From Gammaproteobacteria bacterium (GTDB lineage: Bacteria; Pseudomonadota; Gammaproteobacteria; JAJDYQ01), in contig JAPYNQ010000016.1 of the NCBI GenBank assembly GCA_028289815.1, forward strand, positions 1-42,909: 42,909 bases of DNA, in the 5' to 3' direction. Position 1 is the stretch's first letter; each line of letters starts with the position of its first letter. Under the pieces are notes generated by a model, which was given only the letters and a program-made list of their open reading frames with translations, did no database searches and was not told where the DNA came from. Position numbers and translations under genes: made by a program. Below, in pieces: positions 11,586 through 22,455 of the stretch.

Positions 11586-12103
11586 TCACACTATCCAGAC
11601 TTCAATATTTTTGACTACGTATTCTATTGGCAGTCGCTCCTGCTCCAGCCTCCTATCGGCATAGTGGTCGGCGCGTAATCCTTTAAACAAAGCCAGCTCT
11701 TTATCGGTCAACGCAACGGGACCTTTCGATACTGAGTCAGGCTCTGAAACCATACGACCCACGAAAGTCTCAACTGTCAGTTCATCCATCATCAACGGAG
11801 TAATGCTACTCAGTTTATTTCGGGCATCACTAAGTATGCTAAAGCCCTCGGAATCAACGTCACCCCAATAACCTACATTCTTTCGTGCTAACCACCCAGC
11901 CTTCATCCATGTGACGTTTTTCCCTCCGCCCGAAACTGCTATCGTGTTGGGAACATTGTTTAGTGCTAGGCAGGATTGTTCGTTCTCTATCACCAAGATA
12001 TTACTCGCTGGCAGTTCAAATTCGCGCAAGATGTCAGAGGATAAGCGCAGTAGTGGTGCCCCACCCAGTGACTTCCTTGTTTCCTTACATAGCGGCTTAA
12101 CTA
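11586..12103 (-). pseudogene. C-terminal remnant of a JetD-like Wadjet defence protein (DUF2220)
   Basis: Wadjet (JetABCD) restricts plasmids; JetD supplies the TOPRIM-type nuclease. This remnant reads, from the edge of the insertion sequence at 12103, VKPLCKETRKSLGGAP and on through FELPASNILVIENEQS, AVSGGGKNV, VGYWGDVDSEGFSIL, PLMMDELTVETFVGRM, LTDKELALFKGLRADHYADR and RLEQERLPIEYV to a normal TGA stop. The IEN glutamate and the WGDVD acidic pair match the TOPRIM residues of DUF2220. About 172 residues survive; the DUF3322 N-terminal half and jetABC are absent. On the other side of the IS the frame meets a stop at once, so simply removing the IS would not restore the gene. Family assignment is by motif recognition. 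Confidence 0.72.
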
Positions 12104-12123
12104 GGGCGTGTTAGCACTACTGC
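12104..12123 (+). repeat. Left terminal inverted repeat of the IS5-family element
   Basis: GGGCGTGTTAGCACTACTGC at the left edge matches the right edge read in reverse at the first nine bases and again at CAC and ACTGC. It is preceded by the TA duplication at 12102-12103. Confidence 0.88.
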
Positions 12124-12879
12124 AGCGCCTCGACTATGAGCACAAAAACGATGAACCCGAGGAAGATGACATCAAGTTTCTCGAAATCGGGAAAAGATCC
12201 TGCGCAAGCCCTTGAACCGCTGGAAGAACCGCTCGACCTCGTTGCGCCGCTTGTACAGTTCCTCGTCGTATTCCCACGAGGCCGGTGCGGTCTTTTTTCG
12301 GCGGAACCACGGGAACGAAGCCCAGATCAAGCACCAGTTGGCGCGTCTCGTTGCCTTCGTAGGCCCGGTCCATAACCAGTGCCGGCGCTTCGTCCGTTGG
12401 TTCCTCCAGTGTTTTCAGGAGCTCGCGTCCGGCCGGAGTGTCGTGCGCATTGCCGAGGGAGAGCGAGAAAGCAACTGCCGTTCGAGCATCCACGGCAACC
12501 CTATGAATCTTGGTGTTCCAGCCTCCACGGGACTTACCGATGGACTGCGGGCCGTTTTTGCTAGGGCACCCGTGCCATCGGGATGCACTTTCACGCGGGT
12601 GCTGTCCAAGCCGAGTGCCTCTACCTCGATTCGGACGATTTGATCCCGCTGCAGTTGTTCGAATACCCGATCCAGCACGCCGTTCTTCGACCAGCGGTTC
12701 ATGCGAGTGTAAATCGTGTGCCAATGGCCGAAGCGCTCCGGCAGGCCACGCCACTTGCAGCCGTGCTCGGCCACGAACAGAACCGCATTGAGCACTTGCA
12801 GGTTCGGCAGAGCCACATTTCCCCGCTGCTTTGGGAGCAGCGGAGCGATGCGTTCATACTGGGCCTCGGTAAGTTCCAC
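12117..12879 (-). pseudogene. IS5-family transposase, spread over three frames
   Basis: DDE transposase. The first part starts at GTG 12879 (VELTEAQYERIAPLLPKQRG) behind an AGGGGGG ribosome site and runs to the first catalytic Asp (ALGLDSTRVKVHPDG). At GCAAAAACGG a minus-one shift onto AAA is needed to continue as NGPQSIGKSRGG, HRVAVDARTAVAFSLSLGNA and the second Asp segment LVMDRAYEGN; such a shift can be natural programmed frameshifting in this IS group. After VPPKK a second shift at a run of six A is required to reach SWEYDEELYKRRNEVERFF, which holds the catalytic Glu. A third, after IFSRF, is needed to reach KLDVIFLGFIVFVLIVEALQ and the TAG at 12117. The last two look like single-base insertions, so this copy is probably dead. 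Confidence 0.85.
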
Positions 12880-12941
12880 CGGTTTGATCCCCCCTGCCTT
12901 TCCAGCCAATGACGATAGGGGATGAACATACCATATCTGGA

Positions 12942-12962
12942 GCAGTTTGTGTGAACACGCCC
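12942..12962 (-). repeat. Right terminal inverted repeat of the IS5-family element
   Basis: Read on the minus strand it begins GGGCGTGTTCACACAAACTG, matching the left end. It is followed by TA at 12963-12964, the second copy of the target dinucleotide. Confidence 0.88.
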
Positions 12963-12979
12963 TAATCAGATCGTGCTTG

Positions 12980-13091: not shown

Positions 13092-15413
13092 TCATGCTGA
13101 ATCGGTATCGCAATCAGGCAATAGCCATGCCGCCAATGCAGGCAGTAGTGTTACGGCAGCAAGCATATTTACCAGTAGCATGAAAAGCAGCATCGTGCCC
13201 ATATCTGCCTGAAATTTCAGATCTGAAAATACCCACGGTAATATGCTTATGGTCAGTGCCGTTGCAGTGAAGATTACTCCGCTGCCTGTGACCTCCAGGA
13301 TTGCCCTGAATGCTTTCTGAAGACTCAGCCCTTGTTTCATCAATAAATGCAAACCACTGAATATATAAATCCCGTAATCAACGCCGATGCCTATGCCAAG
13401 CGCAACCACAGGAAGAGTGTTTATCTTTAATCCGATTTCCAGACCAGCCATCAAGGCATATGACAGCAAGCTGACGACACCAAGAGGAATCACAACGCAT
13501 AATGTCCCTTTTATTGTTCGAAAGGTCGCTAAACACAACATAAAAATAGCACCAAATACATATGCCAGAATCGGAAACTGGGCATCTTTTATGACTTCAT
13601 TGGTGGCTGCCATGACGCCAATGTTGTGACCGGCCAGTAAATAATTGACTTTTTCACCGGCTTCATCATTGTTATATCTTTTTACTGCACTGATAACATG
13701 TGAAATGGTTTCGGCTTTACGGTCCTGCATAAAAATCAGTACAGGCATGACACTGCAATCTTTGTTCAACAGCCCCGCTGTGGTTGGTATGTAAGCTGTT
13801 GATTGCGCCAACATGTGAGCATTACGTGGTAACTCACGCCACTTCAGTGAACCTTCATTCCAGCCGGCATTCAAAATCCTGGCAACATCAGATAATGAAA
13901 TAACTGACTGCACCCCCCGGGTGTTTTTCATCTTCCAGGAAAATTTATTGATATCCTGCATAACATCAAAATCAATGCATCCCTCTTTTTTGGTCTCAAC
14001 AATAACCGAGAGGATATCGGTACCAATGGAAAATTTCTCAGCTATGATGCGTGCATCCAGATTGTAAACAGCGTTCTCCCGAAATTCAGGAACACCCCGA
14101 TGTAAATCGCCAATCGTAATATCCGATCCTGTTGAATATCCGAGCAGGGACAATACGGAACCGAGCATTATTATCATCATTGCCGGCTTTTTATGCGACA
14201 CAATCGCTAATTTGTCCCAGACGGACGCGAATAACTGTACGTGCCTGAAAAGATTCTGTCGATATTTTTCAGCGGGGGTAATATAAGATAAAAGTACGGG
14301 TATCAGTATCAGGTTGGTCAGTATTATAATAGCAACGCCCATGCTAGCAGTGACGGCCATGTCTTGTATGACTTTGATTTCAATAAACAGGATGGTCAGA
14401 AAACCGACCGCATCACTCAGCAGGGCAACGCCGCCGGGCAACAGCAGCCTCCGAAAGCCGTTTCTTGATGCCTCAATACCGGTTTTACCCTCACATATCC
14501 CAGCCATAATCGCACTGACCATCTGCACAGCATGACTAACGCTAATCGCAAAGATCAGAAAAGGCACCAGTACTGACATCGGATCAATACCATAATCAAA
14601 CAGTGGCAATAATCCCATCAACCAGACTACAGCCATCAGAGCGCACATAAGAATCAATAGGGTCAGAATGACAGATTTCATGTAAACATAAACAAGAATG
14701 GCTATGAGCGCGAAAGTGATGATAAAAAAGAACTGAACGTCAGTGGCAGCCTGATGAAGGTCGCCAATTATCTTTGCAAATCCGATAATATGAACTCCCA
14801 TGCCAGTATCACCGGTTGTAAGACGCTGGCGTATTCGCTCTTCCAAGAGTCGGGATACTTTGACGTAATCAGTTTTTTCTCCTGTGTCAGCATCAATTTC
14901 CAAAAGAGAGGCGCTGATCATTGCCGCAGTAAAGTCATGCGCTACCAGCTGTCTGGCCATATCCGATTTGAGAATATTATTTCTGACTTCTGCAAAGCTC
15001 TCTGCCGTCGGCCTGAAATCGGCGGGTATGACATTGCCTCCCGAGATACCATCTTCTACTACTTCGGTATATCGAACATCCGGGGTAAATAACGAACTGA
15101 CTCGTGAACGATCAATGCCGGGAATAAAAAACATCTCATCTGTAGCTTGTTTCAAGGCGGCAAAAAATTGTGGGGTAAATATGTCTCCCTGCTCAACCGT
15201 AAGCGCCACAATAATACGATTGGCACCTCCGAATTCCTTGCGGTATTCAAGAAAAGTTTTTATGTATTCATGTTTTACAGGTAACAGCTTTGTAAAGTCA
15301 GTATCAATCCGTAACTGTAAAACGGACGACAGCATAAATACTGTTACTATTGCAAAAAAAATCAGGACTGCGCGGCGATGTCCAAAAATAAAGTTTTCGA
15401 CTGCATGTGTCAT
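13092..15413 (-). CDS. RND superfamily exporter, MMPL type (COG1033)
   Basis: Inner-membrane proton-driven permease of 773 residues. An N-terminal membrane helix (about residues 14-31) precedes a large periplasmic domain, then a cluster of helices from about 225 containing the FLIFAISVSHAVQM and LLSDAVGFLTILFIEI segments. A second helix, a second periplasmic domain and a second cluster with ALGIGIGVDYGIYIFSGLHLL, the MMPL signature, follow. This is the 2x6-helix RND plan without a dedicated membrane-fusion partner. Its ATG overlaps the YCF48 stop (ATGA), so the two are translated together. Relatives carry lipids, hopanoids, sterols or siderophores; the cargo here is unknown. It is last in a four-gene envelope operon. 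Confidence 0.93.
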   Translation of the reverse strand: MTHAVENFIFGHRRAVLIFFAIVTVFMLSSVLQLRIDTDFTKLLPVKHEYIKTFLEYRKEFGGANRIIVALTVEQGDIFTPQFFAALKQATDEMFFIPGIDRSRVSSLFTPDVRYTEVVEDGISGGNVIPADFRPTAESFAEVRNNILKSDMARQLVAHDFTAAMISASLLEIDADTGEKTDYVKVSRLLEERIRQRLTTGDTGMGVHIIGFAKIIGDLHQAATDVQFFFIITFALIAILVYVYMKSVILTLLILMCALMAVVWLMGLLPLFDYGIDPMSVLVPFLIFAISVSHAVQMVSAIMAGICEGKTGIEASRNGFRRLLLPGGVALLSDAVGFLTILFIEIKVIQDMAVTASMGVAIIILTNLILIPVLLSYITPAEKYRQNLFRHVQLFASVWDKLAIVSHKKPAMMIIMLGSVLSLLGYSTGSDITIGDLHRGVPEFRENAVYNLDARIIAEKFSIGTDILSVIVETKKEGCIDFDVMQDINKFSWKMKNTRGVQSVISLSDVARILNAGWNEGSLKWRELPRNAHMLAQSTAYIPTTAGLLNKDCSVMPVLIFMQDRKAETISHVISAVKRYNNDEAGEKVNYLLAGHNIGVMAATNEVIKDAQFPILAYVFGAIFMLCLATFRTIKGTLCVVIPLGVVSLLSYALMAGLEIGLKINTLPVVALGIGIGVDYGIYIFSGLHLLMKQGLSLQKAFRAILEVTGSGVIFTATALTISILPWVFSDLKFQADMGTMLLFMLLVNMLAAVTLLPALAAWLLPDCDTDSA

Positions 15414-16402
15414 TTAGAGTCGCAGCCTGCCAGTTCAATCGTTGAAAAAACCCGGCATAGATCCAGATTACTGATCCCGTTTTCACCGACCAGAATGACA
15501 TGATTGCTTTCATATTCGTATGCGTCTGCAATATCAAATCGTTCCTTTAGCTGATAAAGGTGGCTCTGCCGGTAGTCTTTATCGACAATAACAATATTGC
15601 CGGTATGACCTACTCCCATTAGCTGTCCGTTTCGGAGACGTATCAGGCTGTTAAGTGAGGTTTTGATATTTGTTGATATACGAGACCAACTTTCACCTTT
15701 GTCGCGGGAATAGTAAATTCGCCCTCTCAAGCCGGCGATAGCCACCTGCCCATCTCCCCACACCAGTACGTCAAAAAAAGAGCCTTCATATGGAGAAGAT
15801 AATGTATGCCAGGTTAATCCTCTGTCTTTTGAGCGATATATATGGCCAGCCTCTCCAACAATATAAAGCAGGCCATGCAGGTCATGGCCAATGGCGTTCA
15901 GGTGAAAGTCGTGTTCCTCATTGATTAAACCTTCCAGCCAGTTATTGCCGCCATCCCCGGATACCCGATAGTAACCATAGGCGCCAACTGCAATAATTTC
16001 ATAGGCGCTCAAAAACATGACATCAAGCAAGGGGGCCGCATGATTTTTATCTTCATATACTCTGGACCAGTTATTCCCACCATCATCTGTGCATACGATA
16101 ATAGCGTCATGCCCGACAGCGCATCCGGTTGATGAATCAAACATCTGTATTGCCGTCAGCAATACGCGGGCTTGTACCTTTGACTGATTCCATATGCCCG
16201 GGCTGCTGTGCTTGAGAATATGGCCATATGCCCCTGCGGCCCAGACCGTATTACCGACACCATCCAGTGCTATCAGCAACGAACGGTCAGCCAGAGGCGC
16301 CTGCCAGGAATAATCATTTTTTTCGGCAGCAGCCTCCGTCCACAGGCAAGAATATAAAATAAAAAAGGCCGCGCAACGCAGCCTTGAGGTCATAAGAATC
16401 AT
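15410..16402 (-). CDS. Exported YCF48-like beta-propeller protein
   Basis: The protein has 330 residues with an N-terminal signal peptide (hydrophobic stretch ending near TEAAAEK) and then repeated blades of the form VGxxGxIxRSxDGGxxW. Examples are DDGGNNWSRV, VSGDGGNNWLEG, VGEAGHIYRSKDRGLTWH, AGLRGRIYYSRDKGESWS and VGHTGNIV. This is the YCF48/HCF136-type (BNR-like) propeller. Plant and cyanobacterial HCF136 assembles photosystem II; in heterotrophs these proteins appear beside DUF1329, DUF1302 and MMPL genes with no proven job. It overlaps the permease start by four bases and follows DUF1329 by 16 bases. I infer a periplasmic adaptor or scaffold. Confidence 0.88.
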   Translation of the reverse strand: MILMTSRLRCAAFFILYSCLWTEAAAEKNDYSWQAPLADRSLLIALDGVGNTVWAAGAYGHILKHSSPGIWNQSKVQARVLLTAIQMFDSSTGCAVGHDAIIVCTDDGGNNWSRVYEDKNHAAPLLDVMFLSAYEIIAVGAYGYYRVSGDGGNNWLEGLINEEHDFHLNAIGHDLHGLLYIVGEAGHIYRSKDRGLTWHTLSSPYEGSFFDVLVWGDGQVAIAGLRGRIYYSRDKGESWSRISTNIKTSLNSLIRLRNGQLMGVGHTGNIVIVDKDYRQSHLYQLKERFDIADAYEYESNHVILVGENGISNLDLCRVFSTIELAGCDSK

Positions 16403-16418
16403 ACCGGCGCATCATCTA

Positions 16419-17789
16419 TCAACGGCGACCGGACCGGCGCAAGGCGGATACGGTGAAGTCTTCGGCCTTGACACCAGGTTGGAAATCAATCGTCTTCGAT
16501 TCCTCATTATTCAGACCTAATGCCAGATAGCGGCCCGATTGCAGATCATAATGCACCTCCAGAGTGGACCAGAGCGCAGGCACATCGTAGTAGTTTATGA
16601 CATGCGCCTCGGATACACGCCATAGTTGATCACGATTGTCGTATTGATCGACATGAAGTATTTGCCATGAATCTTCATCAACGTAAAAAGTACGCCGCTT
16701 ATAGAGGTGGCTGATATTGTCTTTAAGCGTTGCATCTACCACCCAGACGCGATGCAGTTCATAGCGAAGGTTGTCCGGGTTCAGGTGTAGCGGATCAAGT
16801 ATATCTTCATATTTCAGCAGGTTACTGTGTAACCGATAGGCGTTATATGGTACGTATATTTCCTTTTTACCGATCAGCTCCCAGTTGTAGCGCTCAGGGC
16901 TGCCATTAAACATATCCAGTTGATCGCTGGTTCTCAAGCCATCCGAACCGGTACCGGGGCTGTCAAACGCAATATTCGGTGCGCGCCTTACTCGTCGCTG
17001 ACCCGGGTTATATATCCATGCCCGGCGTGGCTCGGCGCTTTGATTCAGGGTTTCGTGAACCAGTAATATAGTTCCTGCCAGACGCGGCGGCGCAATGATA
17101 TCCTGAATAAACTGGAGTAGCATATTACCACCCCTGAGGGCATTTTCATCATGGTAGAATGAAATGGATGTGTCCCGCAGCTTAACCAAGGTATAGTCAC
17201 CTGAGCGTGTCACCGGTGCTTGCCCGACATAGCGCATACTTGATTGACCACGATATCTCAGTATGTGGTTCCAGATGACCTCTAACCCGCTTGCGGGAAT
17301 CGGGAAAGGAATCCCGACTACCGTTCCTTCAACACCATTACCATCTTTGCTTAAAGCGGCCTCAACTGCTGACCGGCGGCTTGCTTCATAAATTCTCCGA
17401 GGTAATGCCGCACTTCGACGAGTCAGATAGATGTTCATCCTGAAACTGTTATACATCTCAAGCATTGCCTGGTGACCGGCAGTCAACTTGTCTCGAAACA
17501 GTAACAGGTTGGTTGTATCGACAGTCGCAATCACACTGTCGTCTGCATAAGGGTCAGGGTGATGCCCGCCCGGCTGAAAATCTGCATGTCCGGCATCCGC
17601 AGGCGAAGTCAGCCCTCCGTCCCATGCGGGTATGGAACCATCCGCGTTACCGGCTTTTTCGGCACCTGTCGGCGTCAGTTCATTTCCCAGCCGAGCCACT
17701 TCTTTATCGGGAAGGACGGCGCTAACATGTATAGAGACAAAAGCAATGATCAATCCTGCCGCCAAGTTTATTACTGTTCTGAAATACAC
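16419..17789 (-). CDS. DUF1329 periplasmic/outer-membrane lipoprotein-fold protein
   Basis: The 456-residue exported protein starts at GTG behind an AAGGAGA ribosome site. It has a signal peptide (LAAGLIIAFVSIHVSA) followed by the hallmark DUF1329 N-terminus EVARLGNELTPTGAEKAGN and IPAWDGGL. Later family landmarks include RRAWIYNPGQRRVRRAPNIAFDSP, GLRTSDQLDMFNGSPERYNWEL, KEIYVPYNAYRL, LRYELHRVWVVDATLK and RRTFYVDEDSWQIL. DUF1329 proteins are predicted to adopt a LolA/LolB-like lipid-binding fold. It lies 9 bases after the DUF1302 gene, its near-constant partner. A role in shuttling a hydrophobic molecule across the periplasm is inferred, not shown. Confidence 0.92.
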   Translation of the reverse strand: MYFRTVINLAAGLIIAFVSIHVSAVLPDKEVARLGNELTPTGAEKAGNADGSIPAWDGGLTSPADAGHADFQPGGHHPDPYADDSVIATVDTTNLLLFRDKLTAGHQAMLEMYNSFRMNIYLTRRSAALPRRIYEASRRSAVEAALSKDGNGVEGTVVGIPFPIPASGLEVIWNHILRYRGQSSMRYVGQAPVTRSGDYTLVKLRDTSISFYHDENALRGGNMLLQFIQDIIAPPRLAGTILLVHETLNQSAEPRRAWIYNPGQRRVRRAPNIAFDSPGTGSDGLRTSDQLDMFNGSPERYNWELIGKKEIYVPYNAYRLHSNLLKYEDILDPLHLNPDNLRYELHRVWVVDATLKDNISHLYKRRTFYVDEDSWQILHVDQYDNRDQLWRVSEAHVINYYDVPALWSTLEVHYDLQSGRYLALGLNNEESKTIDFQPGVKAEDFTVSALRRSGRR

Positions 17790-17798
17790 AATATCTCC

Positions 17799-19814
17799 TT
17801 AGAAAAAATACTTGATATAAAATGAAAAGAAATCACGATCACTGAGCAGATTTTGATTTCCTCCACCAAAAAATCCGGTAAAGCTAAAATTGGCAGACCA
17901 TTGATTTTTATAGGTCAAGCCAAGATCCAAAGTAACGGCCTCGCGACCTTCGAGAAAGTTACCTCCGGGTCCGGGCGAGATACCTTTCACGTCATGTTGA
18001 TATGCAATCCCGGGTAACAGATTAACAGCACGATAGACATTGTTATAGGTCCATCGCCCCGCGATCCGGTAGCCCCATGAATTGGCATCTGCAAAAGCAT
18101 TTGCATCGAGTGCGTCAATATCCTCATGCAGGCCACCCGCTGCGGACTGGGCCGGATTACCTGAAACGTAGGTACCCGGTGCTTCCAGCCTCAGTTCCGA
18201 TTTGTGTGGCATGTTATGGATATGCGTTACCGCTGCTTCGGCTACAAAAACCAATGTATCTGCCCCCATAACATTACTGAATACTTTGGTTCCGGTAATC
18301 TGAAACTGGCTTACATCACGTTCAATATAGCCCCGAATGTACTCCTCTGGTCCTGGTGTCGCGCCATTGGTAATCTGATTATCCCGTGCGGCGGGGGATG
18401 ATAATGGTGTCAGTGTGGCTGCCAGTAGTTCGAAGTCATCAATTTGCAAAGGCACATTCCGCTTATGTGCGTATTCTCCCTGGATGGCCCATTGGCCGAC
18501 ACCCGTATTAAAACTTAAGCCCAGCATTTGAATATCCTCGGGATACTCCAGAAAATACCTCGCTGTATCGGCATACTGATCCACAGACACTATCCTGGCC
18601 ACACCAGCTGATATGCGGTCAGCCGCAGCAGGTGTCAGTCCATATATGGTCTGCAGGGTGACACTGACATTCGATCCGCGCACAGCAATTGCACGTGCAG
18701 CAGCAAGTGCCGAATTTAATCCGGCCGTGGTACCGGTTTGTGCGCCAAGAACAGGTAAACGGCTATGGTAATTAACGTAATATGCGCCAAATTCGGTATC
18801 GTTAAGTGACTGTGCAAAGTAACGCAAAGCGATACCCCATTGACCATCATCAGCGGCATTCCGATCTTTGCTGCGATTGACCCCGTAAAAGAAGTTGTCA
18901 TTCAGGTAGGAATGCCCTCCGGTACGCGCCACAGCCGCATCAATATCGGCTGATATTGCCGTATCAATCAAGGCAACTCCTGCAGATCCCCTCGCGCCCA
19001 AGGAAGTGTAAAGAAAAAAGGGACCAGCAGCCAATCCCTGATCCGAGAACTGCCCGAATCCCAGCTGTACGCGAGTCGCCCCTTCCCCGGCGACATCCAA
19101 GGCGCTGAAGTAAGAACCGGCGGGATCAATATCTGTCTTTTCCCAAACGAGCTGATAAAAGCCTTCAGCCGACAAAGCCGGCGTCAGATTGAGTGACATC
19201 GAAAACATATTTACCGGCAGCAACGCTTCTCTGATCTCAGAGCCCGGTAAACGTACCGCAGCCACATCAACAGGGTTAATGACATTGATTCCGCCTTGTA
19301 TAAACGTACTTTCTCCCCAGTTCAGAACATGTTTGCCCAGACGTACATCTGCCGAGTGATCACCGAACAGAGCAAACTGCGACCAAGCATAAAAATCCAG
19401 CAGCCTGACGTTACTTCCTACCAGTTCTCTGGCATCAGCGGATAAAGCGGTACGCTGCGTATCATCGGCACTGTCATTCTTTCGATCAGCAAAAGCAGTC
19501 AACCGGATGAAACCACCCATATCACCGGACTTATGATTAATCTCAATATCACTGGTCAACCTGTAAACCTGTGAGATGTTACCCTGCTGATAATTAAGAT
19601 TACCGTCATCATTGTTACAGCCCAGTGCGGTACCGCCGTTAGCCATACAGATCAGACTGGTATCCGCATCCCGCAGACGGTAGCTGGAACCTAGGGACAA
19701 TGTGCTGTCAATATTCCCGGTAATAACACCATGATTAAATTCGTAAGCGTGCGAAATACCGACAAACCCTATGCCGATCAACAGAAAACAAACATAATTT
19801 CGATTAAAGAGCAC
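17799..19814 (-). CDS. DUF1302 outer-membrane beta-barrel protein
   Basis: The protein has 671 residues, starting at GTG behind a GAGTAGAGA site. It has a signal peptide (YVCFLLIGIGFVGISHA) and then repeated amphipathic strands with a terminal Phe (SFYIKYFF), the outer-membrane protein C-terminal signal. Family landmarks are VITGNIDSTLSLGSSYR at the mature N-terminus, VRLGKHVLNWGES, INPVDVAAVRLPGSE, ALLPVNMFS and the WGIALRYFAQSLNDTEFG stretch. DUF1302 barrels are porin-like and occur with DUF1329. First gene of the operon; a promoter must lie in the 221-base gap to the regulator gene. It probably forms the outer-membrane pore or sink of a trans-envelope system. Confidence 0.92.
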   Translation of the reverse strand: MLFNRNYVCFLLIGIGFVGISHAYEFNHGVITGNIDSTLSLGSSYRLRDADTSLICMANGGTALGCNNDDGNLNYQQGNISQVYRLTSDIEINHKSGDMGGFIRLTAFADRKNDSADDTQRTALSADARELVGSNVRLLDFYAWSQFALFGDHSADVRLGKHVLNWGESTFIQGGINVINPVDVAAVRLPGSEIREALLPVNMFSMSLNLTPALSAEGFYQLVWEKTDIDPAGSYFSALDVAGEGATRVQLGFGQFSDQGLAAGPFFLYTSLGARGSAGVALIDTAISADIDAAVARTGGHSYLNDNFFYGVNRSKDRNAADDGQWGIALRYFAQSLNDTEFGAYYVNYHSRLPVLGAQTGTTAGLNSALAAARAIAVRGSNVSVTLQTIYGLTPAAADRISAGVARIVSVDQYADTARYFLEYPEDIQMLGLSFNTGVGQWAIQGEYAHKRNVPLQIDDFELLAATLTPLSSPAARDNQITNGATPGPEEYIRGYIERDVSQFQITGTKVFSNVMGADTLVFVAEAAVTHIHNMPHKSELRLEAPGTYVSGNPAQSAAGGLHEDIDALDANAFADANSWGYRIAGRWTYNNVYRAVNLLPGIAYQHDVKGISPGPGGNFLEGREAVTLDLGLTYKNQWSANFSFTGFFGGGNQNLLSDRDFFSFYIKYFF

Positions 19815-20035: not shown

Positions 20036-20683
20036 TCATGTTTTTTCGCAAAACCCCATTTCTACCGCCATTACAGCCGCCTCAACGCGGGAATGTACGG
20101 AAAGTTTTCTTAAAATTGCCTTGACATGAATTTTCACAGTACCGTCAGAAATGCTTAATTCACGGGCGATCACCTTATTGCTCTGCCCTTCTGCCAGATG
20201 GCAAAGTATCTCCCTTTCACGTGGCGTTAATTCGGAGAAAGGCATAGCTACTCCCTGAATATTGGGCACATCGCCCTGCACTACCTTGGCCAGAACGCTT
20301 GCCAACTCCGGCGCCACAACCATCTTACCGTCAATAATGTCGCCCAAGGCAATAACCAAGTCGTCCGGTTCCATATCCTTCAGCAGATAACCCTGAGCAC
20401 CGTATCGAAGCGAGCGCACAACATCCCACTCTTCGCGGCTAGTCGATAGCATGGCTACCGGAGTCCTGATATCCGACTCCCGGATGTGCCTAAGCATTTG
20501 CAGCCCGCCCATCTTCGGCATACGTACATCCAGCAGGATAATGTCCAGTTCGAGAGTGGTCGCCATGCGTATACCTTCTGCGCCATCCCCCATAGCATTG
20601 ACTACTTCAATACCGCGTTGTTGCAGCAGCTCCTGCAAGCCGCTGCGGAACAAAGTATGGTCATCAACTAACAGCACTTTCAT
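20036..20683 (-). CDS. NarL/FixJ-type two-component response regulator
   Basis: The 215-residue regulator has a receiver domain (MKVLLVDDHTLF; phospho-acceptor Asp in IILLDVRMPKMGG; Lys in GYLLKDMEPDDL) and a LuxR/GerE helix-turn-helix (FSELTPREREILCHLAEGQSNKVIAR and DGTVKIHVKAILRKL). The phrase YLLKDMEPDDL and the C-terminal SRVEAAV place it in the NarL subgroup. I used the second ATG (MKVLLVDD), with AGGA about 11 bases upstream; the ATG four codons earlier abuts that site. It lies between the NarX-like kinase and the DUF1302 operon on the same strand. Inference: it is the partner of the kinase and regulates the envelope operon. Confidence 0.92.
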   Translation of the reverse strand: MKVLLVDDHTLFRSGLQELLQQRGIEVVNAMGDGAEGIRMATTLELDIILLDVRMPKMGGLQMLRHIRESDIRTPVAMLSTSREEWDVVRSLRYGAQGYLLKDMEPDDLVIALGDIIDGKMVVAPELASVLAKVVQGDVPNIQGVAMPFSELTPREREILCHLAEGQSNKVIARELSISDGTVKIHVKAILRKLSVHSRVEAAVMAVEMGFCEKT

Positions 20684-20910
20684 GGCACGCAACATCCTAA
20701 TCGAATTTAATCCGGCATGATACTGTTTGGGACTGTATAGAAATCCCGGTTCAACCGGAAACTCTTTCAGAGGCCAATGCCATCTACAAATATGGCGACT
20801 AGCTGATTGGCTCTGTTAAAGACCCCGGCTTGATTATCAAATCCTGATCATTCCTGCTCCGCTGTCTTTGCTGCGCCCTCCCTGCCACTCATTTACTCAC
20901 CGGGCTACCC

Positions 20911-22455
20911 CTATTTCGTATCCCAGCGAAAGCTCAATTCGACACGGGCACCCTCGCCCGCTTCCGACTCAACATTCAGCTCAGCGTCAATATAAGCCGC
21001 CCGCTCTCGCATCACCCGCAAACCAATATGTCTGCCATCGGCAAGGCTGTTATCGGCATTCGCTTCAAAGCCACATCCGTCATCTTCGAGCAATAGCTGA
21101 CACGTGCCTTTATCGGATAATCGCAACAGTAATCGGACCATGCGTGCATCGGCATGTTTTTTGACATTAGCCAGTGCTTCCTGGACTATGCGAATGACCT
21201 GCCGCCGGATATGCGAAGGCGGTTCAATCTCGTCACAATAAAACCGGCTGGAAACCAATACCTGGCTTTCTTCTCTGAATTTTTTCAATATATCACTCAA
21301 TGCGGGCGCCAGACCTCTTTGATCAATCGGAGCGCGAAAATGAGCCAGTAGCTCACGTAATTCACCATTAGCACGGTCAACACCTTCCTTCAACCGGGCA
21401 ACCTTTTGCACCACCGAGTCAAGATTGGATTCCTCTACGCTCGCCTCCAGTGCTTTACATTGAAAACGCAGACTGGCCATGCTTTGCGCCAGCGAATCAT
21501 GCAGCTCATGCGCAAGCGTCAGGCGCTCCCGGAAAATCGACTGTTTCTGCGCTTCTTCATCAAGTTGTGCCTTATGAACCGCTAAACCGAGATGAAAGCC
21601 AATACTGGTCAACAATTCGTGCAAGTCGTAGCTCATACTGGAAGCAGATTGGTCCATCAATAAGTGGTAGGCCCCCATGACATCACCCTGATGGATTAAA
21701 GAAACGATCACACATTCAAAGTCCGCAGCGTACTCGCTGAACCGACGAAAGTCTCTTGAGGCCCCTAGCGAGATCACATAGACACTCTTAGCTTTTGAAC
21801 CATGGCCGGGTATGGCATCGATCATCGGGATGCTGTCTTCATACTGATCGGATGCCTCGCCGACCGCGGCAATTAATTTCATATCACCATCCGCCGTAGC
21901 AAGGCGCACCAAAGCCGCCCGTGCATGGGTGATTTCTGCGGAAATATGCAGAAAACGCTCAAGCACTTCATTCAAGTCATGAGACACGCTGATGCTGGCC
22001 GCAATGTCATATAGAATCTCCAGCAGGCGGGTCTTTCTGATCATCTGCCGCAGCTGTTCGCTGATTTTTTCATCGCCTTCAAAACCAACTTCTTTATACC
22101 AGCGCCCCATCTGCGATATATCCTGCAAAAGGTCAGTAAACTGGCCTTTGGCGGGTAATGTAATTTCAGCAGAATAGTCACCCTCACGCATACGCGATGC
22201 CCAACTGCGGATGCTGCTGATAGGTTGAATCAATTCACGATAAAAACGCCTGACAAGTGCCAGTAGTATGGCGACACACAAGATAAGCAAGACAATCTGA
22301 ACGGGTAAAATATAGCTAATCCGTTCGGGAAACTGATAAAGCCCCCATATTGTCGCAGCCGCGATAACAAACAGCATAAAAAGCACCACAAACAAACGGA
22401 GTACCCAACCTGACATCACAGGGTCACGCACCCAAGGGTAATCAAACCATGACAT
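20911..22455 (-). CDS. NarX-like sensor histidine kinase (HisKA_3), almost no periplasmic domain
   Basis: The 514-residue membrane kinase has two membrane helices (about 20-40 and 49-69), a HAMP linker (about 66-118), a GAF-like region (about 150-295), the HisKA_3 dimerisation motif with His319 in LAHELHDSLAQSMASLR, and an HATPase_c domain (RIVQEALANVKKHADA, LEDDGCGF and HIGLRVMRERAAYI). The fold matches NarX/NarQ. However, the loop between the two helices is only about eight residues, so the nitrate-binding periplasmic helical domain (P-box) is missing. The signal is therefore probably membrane-borne or cytoplasmic through GAF. It is 215 bases from the regulator gene; a CCGGTT/AACCGG hairpin lies in that gap at 20746-20758. 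Confidence 0.92.
   Translation of the reverse strand: MSWFDYPWVRDPVMSGWVLRLFVVLFMLFVIAAATIWGLYQFPERISYILPVQIVLLILCVAILLALVRRFYRELIQPISSIRSWASRMREGDYSAEITLPAKGQFTDLLQDISQMGRWYKEVGFEGDEKISEQLRQMIRKTRLLEILYDIAASISVSHDLNEVLERFLHISAEITHARAALVRLATADGDMKLIAAVGEASDQYEDSIPMIDAIPGHGSKAKSVYVISLGASRDFRRFSEYAADFECVIVSLIHQGDVMGAYHLLMDQSASSMSYDLHELLTSIGFHLGLAVHKAQLDEEAQKQSIFRERLTLAHELHDSLAQSMASLRFQCKALEASVEESNLDSVVQKVARLKEGVDRANGELRELLAHFRAPIDQRGLAPALSDILKKFREESQVLVSSRFYCDEIEPPSHIRRQVIRIVQEALANVKKHADARMVRLLLRLSDKGTCQLLLEDDGCGFEANADNSLADGRHIGLRVMRERAAYIDAELNVESEAGEGARVELSFRWDTK

Follow-up and report, generated by a model that had tools for sequence, protein, structure and literature searches.

How very hydrophobic molecules are carried across the Gram-negative periplasm is largely an open question outside the Mla, Lpt, and Lol systems. 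Castellaniella defragrans 65Phen encodes AmeABCD, which combines a DUF1302 protein (AmeA), a DUF1329/LolA protein (AmeB), a COG4447 (YCF48) protein (AmeC), and an HAE3 RND transporter (AmeD) (Puentes-Cala & Harder 2018; PMC6394551). A mutant deleted for AmeABCD grew less well on monoterpene hydrocarbons, tolerated them less, and accumulated slightly more Nile Red; its real-time efflux kinetics hardly differed from those of the wild type, and the authors described the cassette as conserved and its pump as a distinct HAE3 lineage (PMC6394551). In Pseudomonas putida, growth on the fatty-acid ester Tween 20 requires PP_0765, PP_0766, PP_2018, and PP_2019, which were proposed to form a transport system, with predicted AlphaFold contacts ranging from weak to strong (PMC10866462). 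A "nanopod" cluster of porin-like, DUF1329, YCF48, and MMPL genes is strongly expressed in benzene-degrading Ca. Anaerobenzenivorax ORM2a, with benzene as its proposed cargo (PMC13101534), and Delftia nanopods contain DUF1302 and DUF1329 proteins (PMC3110197). Here we analyzed a four-gene cassette at positions 13092-19814 of a 42,909-nucleotide contig from a gammaproteobacterium (JAPYNQ010000016.1; this whole stretch is called the window below). This cassette belongs to the widespread kind already described in 2018 as AmeABCD, and it is almost certainly an AmeABCD-type trans-envelope cassette for hydrophobic molecules. The original prediction, made from the DNA letters, called it the best candidate in the window for an undescribed system; that claim fails because the AmeABCD (2018), P. 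putida, ORM2a, and Delftia nanopod reports exist, and AmeABCD matches the cassette in gene content and order, has been studied with a deletion mutant, and occupies an HAE3 sub-branch of its own (PMC6394551).

The cassette consists of four intact open reading frames, all on the (-) strand, in the order DUF1302 > DUF1329 > YCF48 > MMPL/RND. The first gene (17799-19814; 671 amino acids, GTG start) encodes an AmeA-type DUF1302 outer-membrane beta-barrel that ends in a C-terminal Phe and matches PF06980 at residues 9-671 (E=1e-160). The second (16419-17789; 456 amino acids) encodes an AmeB-type DUF1329 periplasmic LolA-like carrier, which matches PF07044 over nearly its full length (E=2e-148) and also LolA_like (1.6e-11); its GTG start is aligned with the protein start in a congener. 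Both proteins begin with a hydrophobic, signal-peptide-like segment. The third gene (15410-16402; 330 amino acids) encodes an AmeC-type YCF48/BNR-repeat beta-propeller that is predicted to be periplasmic (PSII_BNR/YCF48, 1.8e-15), and the fourth (13092-15413; 773 amino acids) encodes an AmeD-type, HAE3-like MMPL/RND inner-membrane permease (MMPL, 2.8e-26, split over two stretches). Intergenic gaps of 9 and 16 nt are followed by a 4-nt ATGA (15410-15413, (-) strand) in which the stop codon of YCF48 overlaps the start codon of MMPL, an arrangement that likely couples translation of these two genes. The spacing, overlap, and families named in the original prediction thus agree with the open-reading-frame coordinates, the junction sequence, and the Pfam matches. 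A promoter/terminator scan gave signal no better than shuffled sequence. DUF1302 and DUF1329 are each present in one copy in the window's genome (2.18 Mb, 97% complete). Compared with congener G001, amino acid identity is 69-80%, and nonsynonymous divergence (dN) of 0.11-0.20 against synonymous divergence (dS) of >1.3 is consistent with purifying selection on the cassette genes, where dN/dS is indicative only because dS is saturated.

The predicted folds fit a set that spans both membranes, as had been proposed from the families. The DUF1302 model (m64dc6f1f8b03; pLDDT 84) is a beta-barrel with a helical insert at about residues 363-415, and its best PDB folds are the Occ, OmpF-type, and AlgE porins; TolC was not among the 50 PDB fold matches listed. 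The DUF1329 model (m8f94a8cf2f86; pLDDT 81) is predicted to be a lipid-carrier-like half barrel with an N-terminal extension, and its best PDB folds are 9tp6 (LolA3 of Porphyromonas gingivalis), 4z48 (DUF1329), and 3bk5, in the LolA superfamily. This likeness, together with the Pfam match, supports the earlier call of a predicted lipid-binding periplasmic protein. A PDB sequence search with DUF1302 and DUF1329 gave no match, and relatives were obtained only by fold comparison; by contrast, the propeller matched the Ycf48 structures 5ojp and 2xbg by sequence. The cassette is not a classical tripartite RND (HAE1) system, since Pfam recognized in it, as the original prediction had it, neither a membrane-fusion protein nor a TolC-type channel, and the DUF1302 model is porin-type.

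The best NCBIfam match of the pump is TIGR00921 (HAE3), which covers nearly its full length at 137.6 bits (E=4e-40), below the 351.9-bit cut-off. Its score against the HpnN model TIGR03480 was 69.4 bits, where the cut-off is 751.85, so that the pump is not classed as HpnN, and it matched the MmpL3/MmpL5 structures only weakly. A hydropathy scan, a crude method that may merge or miss helices, gave 10 segments in two halves with two large loops, where 12 transmembrane (TM) helices are expected of HAE3. In an alignment of 74 cassette pumps, plasmid-borne ones included, S293, H294, and Q297 in the TM4 region (SHxxQ) and D679, Y680, and Y683 in the TM10 region (DYxxY) are invariant, and these residues may form a proton relay.

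We surveyed relatives in two ways. An even sample of 274 gammaproteobacterial species contained a close DUF1329, detected with the DUF1329 model, in 40 species, and all four genes occurred in the same order and on the same strand in 26 of the best 30 loci, which were inspected. Two of the remaining loci (L142, L167) are interrupted by contig ends, and two (L165, L166) contain only DUF1302 and DUF1329 within the short stretch fetched. The cassette was also complete in 70 of 80 named loci from several phyla, which were fetched with a DUF1329 profile and represent best matches to the window's lineage, not a random DUF1329 sample; most of the 10 incomplete loci are truncated at contig ends, with L091 and L097 as true exceptions. 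Cassette loci span Gammaproteobacteria, Desulfobacterota/Desulfuromonadales, Nitrospirota, Verrucomicrobia (Opitutaceae), Acidobacteriota, and Alphaproteobacteria. Because the cassette is complete in so many loci of both surveys, the four-gene set is conserved beyond chance, and the co-occurrence proposed at the outset was confirmed.

Several loci depart from this pattern. The DUF1329 at L091 (10001-11311) is 65% identical to the window's and has no DUF1302, YCF48, or MMPL gene within ~10 kb on either side. At L097 (1-6198), a phospholipase of the VolA cluster described below, DUF1302, and DUF1329 stand in a row with no YCF48 or MMPL gene nearby, and FadL is encoded further along the same contig. 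Other orders, DUF1329-DUF1302-RND-YCF48 and DUF1329-DUF1302-YCF48-MMPL, occur at L136 and L138 (P. aeruginosa and Azoarcus plasmids) and L134 (Vibrio alfacsensis), and in the pump tree the former order stands on a very long branch. Relatives also gave weak, short PF07044 matches, which resembled common LolA-like proteins and were excluded from the cassette counts.

Genes adjoining the relatives' cassettes bear on the cargo. In 8 named loci, the immediately preceding gene, in the same orientation, belongs to a single protein cluster, and the three members tested all scored above the VolA/Pla-1 phospholipase cut-off. In G057, DUF1302 is preceded at a distance of ~57 bp by a VolA-like gene that is divided between two frames and scores below the cut-off. 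VolA of Vibrio cholerae releases fatty acids from extracellular lipids (PMC9496633, PMC12208996). By rough estimate, in a genome with at least two thousand genes, a family present in about one copy would seldom adjoin the cassette 8 times by chance. Moreover, in 5 loci the next gene after the pump, in the same orientation, encodes an acyl-CoA ligase, a FadB-like gene is next in 4 of these, and a thiolase gene is present too in 3, while PlsB lies upstream of the cassette in 3 loci. Single ligase links are weaker than the VolA links, because AMP-binding ligases are common. In a quick maximum-likelihood tree of the 74 pumps, with SH-aLRT support only, the window's pump falls within a supported 24-row clade that contains 4 ligase-linked, 1 PlsB-linked, and 1 VolA-linked members and excludes the plasmid pumps. 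The VolA and ligase labels require at least 2 changes each on this tree, which implies that their association with the cassette does not reflect a single inheritance. Together, the VolA-type phospholipase, acyl-CoA ligase, FadB, thiolase, and PlsB neighbors indicate a fatty-acyl cargo in the window's sub-lineage, to which we give an even chance. The statement that the cargo is unknown was therefore only partly right, since published work and these neighborhoods indicate fatty-acyl compounds or hydrocarbons. We found no report of the VolA linkage in the literature searched, which left out most subscription journals.

We infer that the four genes form an operon encoding a transporter that moves hydrophobic molecules across the envelope. 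At the inner membrane, the RND/MMPL protein would use the proton gradient, and the YCF48 propeller may dock on it as a periplasmic adaptor or assembly factor. The LolA-like half-barrel of DUF1329 would ferry a hydrophobic molecule, whether acyl-like or not, across the periplasm, and DUF1302 would serve as the outer-membrane channel. Fatty acids or lysolipids would be the most likely cargo of the sub-lineage, and movement inward from the outer membrane is probable in relatives that combine a lipase with an acyl-CoA ligase; inward transport is somewhat favored in these VolA- or ligase-linked relatives only. We consider this explanation as a whole, from operon and transporter to division of labor and likely cargo, moderately probable. 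A more specific version is doubtful: that the sub-lineage's cassette is a proton-driven importer of long-chain fatty acids or lysolipids released by VolA, an energized alternative to passive FadL, in which the RND pump would work net inward by way of the LolA-like shuttle.

Several points weigh against import and against a fatty-acyl cargo in the window itself. Known RND pumps transport outward, and the window's own cassette has no cargo gene next to it. The sole direct test, that of AmeABCD, was interpreted as export (PMC6394551). Plasmid cassettes, some with another gene order, adjoin aromatic-catabolism genes in Massilia WG5, Vibrio alfacsensis, and Cupriavidus N-1, so that cargo seems to vary between branches and always to be hydrophobic. 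In addition, the window's genome assembly, 97% complete, contains no recognizable acyl-CoA dehydrogenase (PF00441), FadL, or VolA, and these are also absent from G001 (87% complete); the larger congener G002 has both acyl-CoA dehydrogenase and FadL. The sole long-chain-ligase-like AMP-binding gene of the window's genome adjoins an aldehyde dehydrogenase gene, and two other AMP-binding genes resemble acetyl/propionyl-CoA synthetases by eye. We rejected a beta-oxidation role in this genome for lack of acyl-CoA dehydrogenase, within the completeness of the assembly, and the three absences make fuel uptake unlikely there. Retention of the cassette where fatty-acid catabolism is apparently gone favors acyl-chain scavenging for membranes, or efflux, over fuel uptake, and in the window's genome the cassette would serve in membrane-lipid scavenging or rid the cell of unwanted hydrophobic molecules.

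The strongest rival explanation, which we regard as somewhat unlikely, is that the cassette is an efflux pump that exports toxic hydrophobic compounds (hydrocarbons, terpenes, or excess free fatty acids) from the inner membrane or periplasm, so that catabolic neighbors merely mark such compounds. Efflux is favored by the phenotype of the AmeABCD deletion, Nile Red accumulation included (PMC6394551), and by the precedent of the RND family, and export suits a genome without acyl-CoA dehydrogenase or FadL. However, the near-identical efflux kinetics of the AmeABCD mutant and wild type (PMC6394551) do not fit this explanation, the operon-like VolA, acyl-CoA ligase, FadB, and thiolase neighbors suit uptake for use better, and the P. 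putida homologues are required on Tween 20 (PMC10866462). It is less likely still that the cassette moves a self-made lipid, such as an acyl lipid, from the inner to the outer membrane, as HpnN does with hopanoids. Kinship with MMPL/HAE3 proteins, HpnN included, a LolA-like carrier, PlsB beside the cassette in 3 loci, and a single copy that a small genome lacking acyl-CoA dehydrogenase has kept, apparently under purifying selection, are consistent with such trafficking, but patchy presence (40/274 gammaproteobacterial species) and several copies in some genomes are contrary to a core envelope role, and the experimental links concern exogenous hydrophobic substrates. Finally, chance neighbors or a degenerate relic with no functional unit, an idea to which an IS5-type insertion element, ~126 bp beyond the 3' end of the pump gene, lends some color, is highly improbable given the conserved order across phyla, the intact reading frames, the low dN, and the co-occurrence survey, which refutes it.

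On the DUF1302 side, a NarL-family response regulator gene (20036-20695, (-) strand) is next to the cassette in each of the three congeners (G000, G001, G002), and a NarQ/NarX-like sensor histidine kinase gene lies upstream of it (20911-22455, (-) strand), at the same position in G002. The kinase gene was not found on the G001 stretch and is thus beside the cassette in 2 of the 3 congeners. This linkage makes the two-component pair the likely, putative regulator of the cassette. Beyond the pump gene lies a complete-looking IS5-type element (12101-12965) with 16-nt inverted ends (12102-12117 and 12949-12964, 88% complementary) and a transposase split in two frames. Between this element and the tmRNA gene is a fragment of a Wadjet JetD C-terminal domain (11586-12029), suggestive of a leftover island at ssrA; no other Wadjet genes were recognized beside it. 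Elsewhere (G000:C20:33100-34242; L123), a PrpE-like propionyl-CoA synthetase gene adjoins an AcuI-like acrylyl-CoA reductase gene, both read by eye, hinting at dimethylsulfoniopropionate/acrylate metabolism and a marine habitat.

Although the cassette is widespread over several phyla, the 2018 AmeABCD paper is the only dedicated study found in the literature searched. This analysis adds the phospholipase/beta-oxidation linkage, the invariant intramembrane residues, the association with a two-component system, and the presence of the cassette in a genome that lacks both FadL and acyl-CoA dehydrogenase. The repeated VolA/beta-oxidation linkage and the invariant TM4 SHxxQ and TM10 DYxxY residues lead to testable predictions about cargo and energy coupling. 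Compared by families and gene order, with AmeABCD taken from its description, the window has the same four families on one strand, in the same order, and with operon spacing, and neither cassette contains a classical membrane-fusion protein or TolC. AmeABCD sits in a monoterpene-degradation island and is induced by monoterpenes, whereas the window's cassette has no catabolic genes in its vicinity and adjoins a NarL/NarX-type two-component system. The P. putida set likewise combines DUF1302, DUF1329, a periplasmic protein, and an RND-type pump, but in two loci instead of a single operon. ORM2a groups porin-like, DUF1329, YCF48, and MMPL genes as the window does, but its cluster has extra universal-stress and hypothetical genes inside. 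Like the window's pump, HpnN (HAE3) and MmpL3 belong to the MMPL/RND superfamily and handle hydrophobic cargo. HpnN operates with no dedicated partners in the periplasm or outer membrane (PMC6394551), whereas the window's pump is encoded together with predicted partners for both.

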